In this document: positions 11,425-27,659 of the stretch, piece after piece
Position numbering within the stretch: the stretch's first letter is position 1
Layout of the letters: each line of letters opens with the position of its first letter
Origin: Oscillospiraceae bacterium
GTDB taxonomy: Bacteria; Bacillota; Clostridia; Oscillospirales; Oscillospiraceae
Length of the DNA: 64,000 nt
Direction: 5' to 3'
NCBI GenBank assembly: GCA_009783555.1
Contig: WRDH01000009.1
Coordinates: forward strand, 1 to 64,000
The notes under the pieces: generated by a model
The model's input: only the letters and a program-made list of their open reading frames with translations
Database searches by the model: none
What the model was told of the DNA's origin: nothing
Made by a program: the position numbers and the translations under genes

Positions 11425-11907
11425 TTACTCTGATTGAATTTTGTTTTGATTAACAACAAGCAACTTTTTACGAATACTTAAAGCATCAACCTGTGAATAC
11501 ATCCTGCCGAGTTCAACTTGTTTAATATAATTTCTTGACTTTATACTTATTTCTCTTATAAGTTTTAAGTCACCAACGACATAATGTGACCCGTTTATTT
11601 CAAATTCTCCGTCAACATACTCATCAGATACAGGTATCATATTACAAATTCTGAAAGCTCTCTCTTGATTTGCAATTATTCCAATATGATAAGTAATGCA
11701 ATTTCCTTTGCCTCTCTTAGCTTCTACAGCTTCAATTTTTTGTCTGTATACATCTACTTGACTGCTTAGCGGTATTAACCAATAAACACCGAAATTATCC
11801 TTAACTGCATAATAAAATGGTCTGCCTCCCTTTTGTTGAATGTGCATATCATGAGGAAAATCAATATAATATTGGTCTTTTACTTTGTATAGTCCATTTT
11901 CAACCAT
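11425..11907 (-). CDS. Type III toxin-antitoxin endoribonuclease, CptN/TenpN-like (ToxN superfamily)
   Basis: A 160-residue protein whose opening (VENGLYKVKDQYYIDF, then GGRPFYYAVKDNFGVYWLIPLSS) matches the CptIN branch of type III toxins: an N-terminal barrel, KIEAVEAKRGKGN, and the ICNMIPVSDEYVDGEF segment. These toxins cleave RNA and are held as a complex with pseudoknotted RNA antitoxin units. The ATG at 11907 follows AGGTGG by 5 bases; the earlier ATG at 11922 lies before that ribosome site. Upstream on the same strand are exactly the expected parts: promoter, two pseudoknot repeats and a terminator. Assigned from recalled family features, without a search. Confidence 0.85.
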   Translation of the reverse strand: MVENGLYKVKDQYYIDFPHDMHIQQKGGRPFYYAVKDNFGVYWLIPLSSQVDVYRQKIEAVEAKRGKGNCITYHIGIIANQERAFRICNMIPVSDEYVDGEFEINGSHYVVGDLKLIREISIKSRNYIKQVELGRMYSQVDALSIRKKLLVVNQNKIQSE

Positions 11908-11923
11908 AATTCCACCTATCATA

Positions 11924-12055
11924 AATAAAACCCCTCTTATGTGAGGGGCGATATTGCAAGCCTGCGTTTTATACCCCGCCCGCAGGCACGCGGCGAATAT
12001 TAGCTAGTCGTACTCTTATACCCCGCCAACGACATGCGGCACAATGCTTTTCAGC
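11924..12055 (-). ncRNA. Type III antitoxin RNA: two pseudoknot repeats and an attenuator (CptI-like)
   Basis: Transcribed from the promoter at 12062-12089. Repeat 1: stem GTCGT (12033-12029)/ACGAC (12011-12007), loop with GGCGGGGTATAA, 3' tail CGCC (11995-11992) able to pair with the loop GGCG (12027-12024). Repeat 2: stem GCCTGCG (11987-11981)/CGCAGGC (11966-11960), the same loop core, tail CGCC (11950-11947) pairing with GGCG (11980-11977). Stem sequences differ but pairing is kept, while loop core and tail are identical: the signature of H-type pseudoknot units. A terminator (CCCCTC/GAGGGG, 11948-11931, then a U run) separates the repeats from the toxin and limits toxin expression. Confidence 0.85.
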
Positions 12056-12061
12056 ATTTTC

Positions 12062-12089
12062 ATTATATCATTATATAAAGAATTGTCAA
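12062..12089 (-). promoter_or_regulatory. Promoter of the type III toxin-antitoxin
   Basis: On the reverse strand, TTGACA (12089-12084), a 16-base spacer and TATAAT (12067-12062): consensus at both boxes. Such strength is expected for an antitoxin RNA that must outnumber its toxin. Bases 12093-12239 upstream hold no gene or clear signal beyond a small palindrome around 12186-12203. Confidence 0.75.
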
Positions 12090-12239
12090 GATAAAAATGT
12101 TGAGCAGACATAAATGTTCCAAAGTATTCACAAATAACAATTAGGTAGTTAATAGTAATGTACGCATAACACTTGCCGGTAAATATTCTCATAATTTGAG
12201 AAATAACTTGCATTTCAAATTGCCGCAATATATACTCAT

Positions 12240-12502
12240 TTTGGAAACGAAAGTGCCTCGTCAGGTTTTAAAGTGTCGTATACGACACTCTGACGGCAGG
12301 CGAGAAGGGTAGCCGCCCTTCCCGCCTTGTACACGTACCAATACTACGTACACAATTGCATTTAGCAACACCGTTTGGCTATTATATGTCGTAATGCACT
12401 AAGGTGCAAGACATAATAGTTGTTTGTGTCGCACATAATATGCTGTGTATGTAAAGTGAACCTAACAATTCACTCTGATACGCGGCATTTTTCGTTTCCA
12501 AA
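12240..12502. other. 263-bp multi-hairpin element bounded by a 13-bp inverted repeat (candidate structured RNA or MITE)
   Basis: TTTGGAAACGAAA (12240-12252) pairs with TTTCGTTTCCAAA (12490-12502); TGCC/GGCA just inside could extend it. Inside, in order: CGTCAG/CTGACG (12259-12295) around a 16-base perfect palindrome (12273-12288); AGGCG-a-GAAGGG/CCCTTC-c-CGCCT (12298-12327), an 11-bp stem; TGTAC/GTACA (12328-12352); CTATTATaTGTC/GACATAATAG enclosing GCAC/GTGC (12379-12419); CACA/TGTG (12432-12446); GTGAA/TTCAC (12456-12473). Nearly every part is paired. No coding frame or U-run terminator was seen. It ends 5 bases before the ribosome site region of the zinc-ribbon gene. It resembles no RNA family I can name. 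Confidence 0.7.
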
Positions 12503-12525
12503 TAACGAAAAGGAGATATATTGAA

Positions 12526-13032
12526 ATGGCTTTAATTAAATGTTCTGAATGCAGTAGGGATGTTAGCGACAAAGCTGCAGCTTGTGTTCATTGTGGTTGT
12601 CCACTAAGCTACAGCGTATGCAATGTGCAATCAAATAATATTTCTAAATGTTCTTTTGAGAATAAACCAAAAAATACATTAGAGGATTTTACGGAAGCAG
12701 ATATTAAAGAATTACTATCTGTTACAGATGAAATGAATTGTTCAGAGGTAAAACGAAGAGCAGAAGTAATACGAGATTCTGTTGGATTTACATCAATAGC
12801 TACAAGGTTTACTAAACAACACGGCAAAGCACATATTGTTGGAAAAACAAACAATTATTATCTTATCCCAATTATTAGTAAAGACGGCAAGTTCGCTTTG
12901 AATGTGGGCAAGGATGAGTACTGCAATTGGATTCCAGATAACGAGCGAGTAAACATCTATGGTGAAATGGTTATTGGTCACAAAGGAAGAGCATTTAACC
13001 CCAACTCCATCTGTAACTCCTCGGCGAGGTAG
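12526..13032 (+). CDS. Zinc-ribbon protein of unknown function with a replaced C-terminus
   Basis: The N-terminus is a treble-clef/zinc-ribbon: KCSECSRDVSDKAAACVHCGCP, with Cys pairs CxxC at about residues 6-9 and 20-23. A poorly conserved linker and a region ending about residue 150 (YYLIPIISKDGKFALNVG) follow. The last 15-18 codons are simply the antisense of the converging DUF3791 gene, so the original 3' end seems lost and the frame stops by chance at 13032. AAAAGGAG (12508-12514) lies 11 bases before the ATG. The 263-bp folded element ends just upstream and would be its leader if transcribed together. No function is assigned. Confidence 0.6.
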   Translation: MALIKCSECSRDVSDKAAACVHCGCPLSYSVCNVQSNNISKCSFENKPKNTLEDFTEADIKELLSVTDEMNCSEVKRRAEVIRDSVGFTSIATRFTKQHGKAHIVGKTNNYYLIPIISKDGKFALNVGKDEYCNWIPDNERVNIYGEMVIGHKGRAFNPNSICNSSAR

Positions 13033-24390: not shown

Positions 24391-24486
24391 TGGCGGAGGC
24401 AAATGGGAATCGAACCCATCCGTGGAGGAACGCTCCACACAACGGTTTTGAAGACCGCGAGGCACACCAGTCACCCTCCTACCTCC
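24391..24486 (-). tRNA. selC: tRNA-Sec (anticodon TCA)
   Basis: A 96-nt tRNA on the reverse strand. An 8-bp acceptor stem (GGAGGTAG with TTGCCTCC, allowing G-U) is followed by G and an encoded CCA. The anticodon loop TTCAAAA carries TCA (complement of 24449-24451), the variable arm is long (GGAG/CTCC hairpin) and the T arm is GGATGGGTTCGATTCCCAT. The length, 8-bp acceptor and UCA anticodon are diagnostic of bacterial tRNA-Sec. It lies upstream of and divergent from the glycine reductase genes it serves. Confidence 0.97.
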
Positions 24487-26345: not shown

Positions 26346-27659
26346 ATGAGTAAATTTAGAGTAGTTCATTATATCAATCAATTTTATGCCGGTATCGGCG
26401 GTGAAGAGTTTGCAGACCACAAGCCCGAAGTAAGGGAAGGTGTTGTAGGCCCGGGAATGGCTTTAGCCGGAGCATTCGGCGACAAAGCAGAAATCATCAG
26501 TACCGTTGTTTGCGGAGACTCATTCTTTAACGAAAATGTCGCAGAAGCGAAAAAAACCATTCTTGACATGGTAAAGAAAGCAAACCCTGACATTTTCATC
26601 GCAGGACCCGCTTTTAATGCAGGGCGTTACGGCGTTGCATGCGGAACTATTTGCGAAGCTGTTAAGGAAGAGTTGAATATCCCTGTAATTACGGGAATGT
26701 TTGAAGAAAACCCCGGCACTGATATGTTCAAGGATAAGATGTATATCGTAGCTACAAAACCCAGCGCTGCAGGTATGCGTGATGCGATTCCGGTAATTGC
26801 AGCACTTGCTCTTAAACTCGCCGGTAAAGAAAAAATCGGAGCATCGGTTGAAGAAGGATATTTGCCGAACAACACTCGTGTCAATTTCTTCGAAAAAGAA
26901 AGAGGCTCACGCCGTGCCGTAGATATGCTGATCAAAAAAATGGCGGGCAAACCGTTTGTCACTGAATACCCGATGCCTGATTTTGACAGAGTTGAGCCGA
27001 ATCCTGCCGTAAATGATTTCAAATCAATAACAGTTGCGCTTGTCACATCGGGTGGTATTGTTCCCAAAGGCAATCCCGACCACATTGAATCATCAAGTGC
27101 ATCAAAATATGGTGAATATGATATAACCGGAGTAAATGACCTGACAGCAGAAACGTACGAAACAGCACATGGCGGCTACGACCCTGTTTACGCAAACGCT
27201 GATGCAGACCGCGTGCTTCCTGTTGATGTTATGCGTGATTTTGAACGTGAGGGCATTATCGGAAAGCTCCACAACAAGTTTTATACAACAGTCGGCAATG
27301 GAACTTCGACTAAAAGCTCGAAACAATTTGCCGCGGAGTATGCTCAAAAACTCAAAAATGACAATGTACAGGCTGTCATCCTCACATCAACGTGAGGAAC
27401 TTGCACACGTTGCGGTGCAACGATGGTAAAAGAGATTGAACGTGCCGGAATTCCGGTGGTTCATGTCTGTACGGTAACTCCGATATCAATGACAGTCGGC
27501 GCAAACAGAATCGTCCCCGCAGTCGCTATCCCGCACCCTCTGGGCAACCCCTCACTAAGCGCAGCCGAAGAAAAGCAACTGCGACGCAAGATTCTGACAA
27601 CAGCACTCGGCGCACTATCAACAGAAGTCGACGGTCAAACGATATTTGAAGTTAAGTAG
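26346..27659 (+). CDS. grdB: Glycine reductase complex B, selenoprotein GrdB (Sec 350)
   Basis: The gamma subunit of component B; its selenocysteine takes the carboxymethyl group from the glycine Schiff base. The frame runs 349 codons to TGA at 27393-27395, then continues in the same frame as GTCTRCGATMVKEIERAG to a TAG at 27659. TST-U-GTCTRCGATM is the family active-site motif, so the UGA is Sec 350 and the protein is 437 residues. Treating it as two genes would leave the second half without a start. GGGGGAGAG precedes the ATG, 12 bases after grdE. Confidence 0.97.
27401..27422 (+). promoter_or_regulatory. Candidate SECIS hairpin of grdB
   Basis: After the UGA two overlapping hairpins are possible: TTGCAC/GTGCAA (27401-27420, 8-nt loop) or CGTTGC/GCAACG (27408-27422) with a GGU triloop. 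The second, 12 bases after the UGA with GGU at the tip, resembles the apical part of known bacterial SECIS elements. Structure probing would decide between them. Confidence 0.5.

Follow-up and report, generated by a model that had tools for sequence, protein, structure and literature searches.

The closest described counterpart of the RNA reported here is the SLH motif, a riboswitch candidate from Thermovirga lienii of which, in the excerpted text of its report (Stav et al. 2019, PMC6429828), 80 examples are given from Synergistaceae, Clostridia and Negativicutes, about 60% of them ahead of genes for SLH proteins; the guess at its ligand was a signal of cell-wall homeostasis. SLH and S-layer genes go unmentioned in two subsequent surveys of this kind. 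The element that we analysed is likewise a structured 5' RNA upstream of S-layer-homology genes in Clostridia (about 60% of cases there, 12 of 42 downstream proteins here), whereas its promoter lock, its terminator/antiterminator exchange and its genes of other kinds than SLH are not mentioned for the SLH motif in that excerpt. The trait of the SLH motif that we looked for, SLH as the commonest Pfam family downstream, was found with our element too, and the T. lienii plasmid contained no match to it. In a comparison confined to gene association and Clostridial range, in both of which the motif agrees well with our element, and as far as the excerpt describes the motif, the chances that the two form one class are about even. 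Attenuating riboswitches, e.g. the cobalamin and T-box leaders, resemble the element in having a promoter-proximal domain, a terminator hairpin with a U-run and a competing antiterminator pairing, but unlike them it has neither a metabolic gene set nor a match to a riboswitch family in Rfam. A known Rfam class was in fact rejected altogether, since none of the 4227 families of Rfam 15 matched, at the gathering threshold, the window element, five further copies (L002-L006) or 40 related loci, which agrees with the earlier sequence-only reading of this DNA, where the element was said to be of no recognised class.

The element is found at positions 12240-12502 of the window, i.e. the whole stretch of 64,000 nucleotides that was analysed, and all its parts are given on the forward (+) strand. 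It is closed by a 13-bp inverted repeat, TTTGGAAACGAAA (12240-12252) against TTTCGTTTCCAAA (12490-12502), which forms the stem P1 and is as exact as had been claimed. The run of internal stems is also present at the positions first given, and so is the perfect palindrome (AGTGTCGTATACGACACT, 12272-12289), which is 18 bases long rather than 16. The 5' strand of P1 continues into GTGC (12253-12256, the two together 12240-12256), which pairs with GCAC at 12431-12434. Inside P1 follow the hairpins P2 (12259-12295), which is variable in length and includes the palindrome, P3 (12296-12330), P4 (12333-12349, ACGTA/TACGT) and P5 (12356-12368, TTGC..GCAA), and thereafter a region (12377-12434) with an inner stem (GGCTAT..ATAGTT) and a conserved CAAG hairpin, then TTGTGT, which pairs with ACACAA, and finally the GCAC. 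A terminator-like hairpin, P7 (12441-12487), is directly followed by TTTTT (12488-12492; 12441-12492 in all), and this T-run also belongs to the 3' strand of P1 (12490-12502). There are no open reading frames of at least 50 amino acids inside the element. The ribosome-binding site AGGAG (12511-12515) and the gene that we regard as controlled (12526-13032), which in the list of open reading frames encodes a protein of 168 amino acids with a zinc-ribbon-like N-terminus (MALIKCSECSRDVSDKAAACVHCGCPL), come after it, as the sequence-only reading had described. The element as a whole folds at -105.2 kcal/mol against a shuffle mean of -70.0 (z -7.9), and none of 100 shuffles was as good. Its minus strand folds strongly too (z -6.9), as is expected of palindrome-rich DNA. 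By the same count, the whole window contains three 13-bp inverted repeats with arms 200-300 bases apart; such a repeat alone is not rare, and it is the fold as a whole, together with its conservation, that stands above chance.

Two things had escaped the sequence-only reading, the recurrence of the element in its genome and a promoter of the sigma-70 type at 12208-12236, with the -35 box TTGCAT at 12208-12213, a spacer of 17 nt and the -10 box TATACT at 12231-12236. The predicted start of transcription, around 12243-12244, falls in P1 and is the first G of GGAAACG. Nearly all copies in the genus have TTGCA(T/A)-N17-TATA(A/C)T right before P1, and most copies in the family have a sigma-70 promoter of their own, TTGCA(A/T)-N17-TATAAT, which places the start at P1. 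Among 97 members the best promoter score was at least 10 of 12 in 61%, thus not in all, compared to 0.6% of shuffled flanks, with a -35 consensus that was derived from these same data; a spacing of 17 predominates, and in the usual case 5-9 nt separate the end of the -10 box from P1. The element had been presented as a lone one beside a gene; instead it forms the 5' leader of this gene, next to the promoter, with a terminator-like hairpin at its end. Many copies have another, G+C-rich hairpin without a T-run directly behind P1, namely those of loci L002-L005, L032, L039 and L044 and most members from outside the genus, and the window copy is without it.

The window has some further features. 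A second, unrelated leader-like stretch lies on the minus strand at 11923-12089, ahead of a gene for 165 amino acids (11425-11922). It has a sigma-70 promoter scoring 12 of 12 (12089-12062), two hairpins that each carry GGCGGGGTATAA in the loop (11969-11980 and 12016-12027) and, between these and the gene, a terminator-like hairpin, GCCCCTC..GAGGGGTTTTATTT. The stretch has no Rfam match and its whole fold is unexceptional (z -0.8). The Rfam scan of the window also gave a selenocysteine tRNA (24395-24486, minus strand) and a SECIS_4 element (27396-27433, plus strand), and the organism thus probably makes selenoproteins.

When the genome was searched with the element, five further diverged copies were found, which makes at least six with the one in the window. 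In total 97 distinct members were collected, and these range from a single genus to further classes in the phylum. By plain DNA similarity 9 of the 19 genomes of the genus are positive, and one relative has 13 matches. A covariance model built from 16 copies (R1) gave full-length matches in 25 of the 200 family genomes, spread over 19 of 106 genera, with E-values outside the genus as low as 1e-17. With a second model (R2), built from a broader set, 35 of 245 genomes were positive in the order, 19 of 341 in the class and 6 of 398 in the phylum, and three families that do not belong to the element's own class are among those of the phylum. The genome of the window is counted in these figures, and the weakest matches are doubtful. 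Class-level matches that were around 60 nt long or low-scoring (L238, L240 and others) are probably due to chance and were left out. LpxC, a marker of the diderm Negativicutes, is absent from the outlying positive genomes of the three families outside the class, which are therefore probably not Negativicutes. The search for homologues in related Clostridia that had been proposed thus shows the element recurring at every level from its own genome through genus, family, order and class to the phylum. A phage origin was also considered and rejected, as the genus-specific pattern matches no viral contig, and the two viral contigs that fit a P4 pattern do not fit the covariance model.

The conservation is that of an RNA structure. 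When 56 members were aligned to R1, standard pairs made up 93.5% of the pair cells, compared to 77.4% after shuffling, and two-sided changes are seen in 60 of the 65 pairs, in an alignment that is biased in favour of the model it was fitted to. When partners are slid by 1-3 columns, the paired cells fall to 32-54%, and an independent MAFFT alignment of 16 sequences has 21 pairs with two-sided changes. Over the 56 sequences P1 is 96.5% paired, with two-sided changes in nine of ten pairs, and the same figures are 96.2% and five of five pairs for P2, 90.7% and eight of eight for P3, 99.6% and five of five for P4 and 99.1% and four of four for P5. The helices of the inner region (helices 6, 8 and 9, within 12377-12434) are paired to 82-88%, and P7 keeps 98.2% of its pairs. 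Unpaired blocks, ACACAA, UAUUAUA and CAAG among them, are kept throughout the family, while there is free variation in the loops and at the tips of P2 and P7. A check for covariation had been suggested as a way to recognise a large structured RNA, and with compensatory changes in every helix the answer speaks for one. The leader thus has a conserved and structured 5' UTR domain with compensatory changes, as riboswitches and attenuators do.

P7 resembles an intrinsic terminator, because at least four T follow it in 91 of the 97 members. Its hairpin energy has a median of -19.5 kcal/mol against -5.8 in shuffled sequences. A simple scan of the window for the terminator consensus did not call P7, since the stem is interrupted and the closing loop is a further hairpin. 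A candidate antiterminator strand, TACGTACACA (12345-12354), consists of the 3' strand of P4 and the adjoining ACACA, and in the window it can form ten pairs with TGTGTATGTA (12444-12453) in the 5' strand of P7. Across the members the duplex of these two strands has an energy of -11.4 kcal/mol in native combinations and -8.6 in permuted ones, and none of 5000 permutations was as good; with 30 dereplicated sequences the values are -11.04 and -8.00 kcal/mol (z -7.5). Four control segments, the 5' strand of P4, P3, P5 and the UAUUAUA region, showed no such link to P7. Inside the genus the permutation test has no power, as the 5' strand of P7 hardly varies there. P4 and P7 are almost always paired (99.6% and 98.2%), and the terminator and antiterminator arrangements are thus mutually exclusive. 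Both states lie within 5 kcal/mol of each other in 65 of 91 members (-100.2 and -99.1 in the window), and when the transcript is cut just past the 5' strand of P7, the antiterminator is part of the best fold in 60 of 91. At the level of sequence, the co-variation of P4 and P7 is the signature of a terminator/antiterminator switch, and a putative terminator with a mutually exclusive antiterminator is what makes up an expression platform.

In 75 of 88 loci a gene on the same strand starts within 350 nt downstream, and a divergent start is found upstream in 36 of the 88. A signal-peptide-like start is seen in 36 of the 50 first downstream genes from outside the genus (72%), compared to 8 of 87 other genes of the same loci (9%; p 3e-14). 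SLH is the commonest Pfam family, in the 12 of 42 downstream proteins already mentioned, followed by BspA-type repeats in 6 of the 42, most of which are cut by the end of the locus at about 1.5 kb; another scan gave SLH in 6 of 10 downstream proteins. The 41 upstream proteins that were scanned have no family in common. The class is accordingly tied mainly to secreted and S-layer-type surface proteins. In the window's genus the controlled genes are diverse and include zinc ribbons, SPFH, glycosyltransferases, a methyltransferase-type protein, a subtilase and SLH. Pfam gave no match for the 168-aa protein of the window itself. Zinc-ribbon N-termini similar to it occur seven times elsewhere in the genus, and six of the seven are on three contigs with a leader (L219, L220 and L223, in two relatives), which match at 160.9, 156.5 and 102.3 bits. 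The downstream genes strongly suggest neither a ligand nor a binding protein. TnpB/OrfB-type proteins are encoded downstream of two members, at L086:361-1509 and L111:1933-3186, of which L111 is a weak model match, and a reading as a TnpB guide RNA was dropped, as such proteins follow only 2 of 42. Abi_2-family genes lie divergently just upstream in two genomes with differing downstream genes (L004:153-1139 and L078:393-1379), and this association was also dropped, with Abi_2 in only 2 of the 41 upstream proteins.

We think that the element is probably a transcription-attenuating leader of the gene downstream, most likely an orphan riboswitch, possibly an attenuator that senses a protein. What has been computed is the conservation of the structure, the promoter, the terminator-like hairpin, the alternative pairing with its co-variation and the link to genes; that transcription terminates in the cell, that the folded state is the OFF state and that there is a ligand is what we infer. 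From the promoter of the element itself, the polymerase would start at P1 and produce a multi-branched RNA of around 200-300 nt. With the domain in its native form (P1 to P6), P7 and the U-run would form and transcription would stop, and with P4 open, its 3' strand and ACACA would pair with the 5' strand of P7, so that no terminator forms and the polymerase reads through into the gene. The output would then be set by a signal that either stabilises the domain or opens it. In the window's genus, the promoter and leader have also been copied together ahead of zinc-ribbon, SPFH, glycosyltransferase and other genes.

A leader that is read by protein, either through an RNA-binding antiterminator or as an antitermination RNA that binds the polymerase in the manner of put RNA or EAR, is an unlikely reading but one to be taken seriously. 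In the polymerase-binding variant it would give passage past P7 and past later terminators in long surface-protein genes, and it would fit an RNA that begins at +1, precedes long genes and has a large core with strongly conserved unpaired bases (ACACAA, UAUUAUA, CAAG). No trans-acting factor has been identified, and the co-varying exchange between P4 and P7 is already a switch without any polymerase-binding step. There are known cases of long-lived S-layer mRNAs with a structured leader, and by that precedent P1 might hide the 5' end of the mRNA and protect abundant surface-protein messages against decay, with P7 as no more than a barrier or a structural stem. This would agree with a start that is predicted, for most copies, on the opening bases of P1, but such a leader needs neither a conserved U-run after P7, nor a co-varying competitor of P7, nor a large conserved core, and we find it improbable. 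The promoter, the terminator-like end and the joining of both ends by P1 would also suit a small RNA, some 250 nt long and ending with the U-run of P7, that stands alone and acts in trans, with the downstream gene as a by-product. To such an RNA an antiterminator would be useless, and the close same-strand gene starts and the enrichment of signal peptides point to a role in cis, which makes this decidedly improbable.

The sequence-only reading had also named a non-autonomous mobile element, and a MITE whose palindromes are transposase sites has in its favour the six or more copies in the own genome, the 13 matches in one relative and pairs of copies that are very similar between unrelated flanks. 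In loci L038 and L041, from two related genomes, the element is 92% identical, and the identity spans from some 50 bases upstream of P1, i.e. from the promoter, to the end of P1, outside of which the sequences are unrelated; L046 and L051 have a near-identical promoter ahead of different genes. These limits include the promoter, so the copied unit is the head of a transcription unit and not the stretch between the repeats. Copies in one genome are mostly around 71% identical, with compensatory changes, and their flanks are at background, and the near-identical copies bounded by repeats that define a MITE were thus not found. The orientation to the downstream gene is also strict. Neither target duplications nor empty sites were seen, the latter sought at the window locus, where the zinc-ribbon gene has no syntenic counterpart among the relatives. 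Many copies do have unrelated flanks, as had been foreseen for a MITE, but the copied unit reaches outside the inverted repeat, and we regard a MITE as very improbable indeed. The leader resembles mobile promoters and MITEs in that a promoter and leader are found in many copies with unrelated flanks, and differs from them in its long structural selection and in having the borders of a transcription unit rather than of an inverted repeat.

More speculatively, and rather doubtfully as a whole, this could be a new riboswitch-like class that is distinct from the SLH motif, with a conserved core of about 200 nt that would be among the larger ones known, that senses a signal from the envelope and controls surface proteins across Clostridia, and whose whole promoter-sensor-terminator cassette is copied within genomes to recruit new genes to that signal. 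A large regulatory RNA without an entry in Rfam is present in around one tenth of the genomes sampled in the family and order, often in several copies. The leader appears to switch surface-protein genes of Clostridia, and its signal would show how the cell surface is set in these bacteria. The putatively bistable exchange between P4 and P7 is a test case that can be mutated directly, and the spread of the cassette among unrelated genes of a single genus would clearly exemplify how a regulon grows by the copying of a leader.
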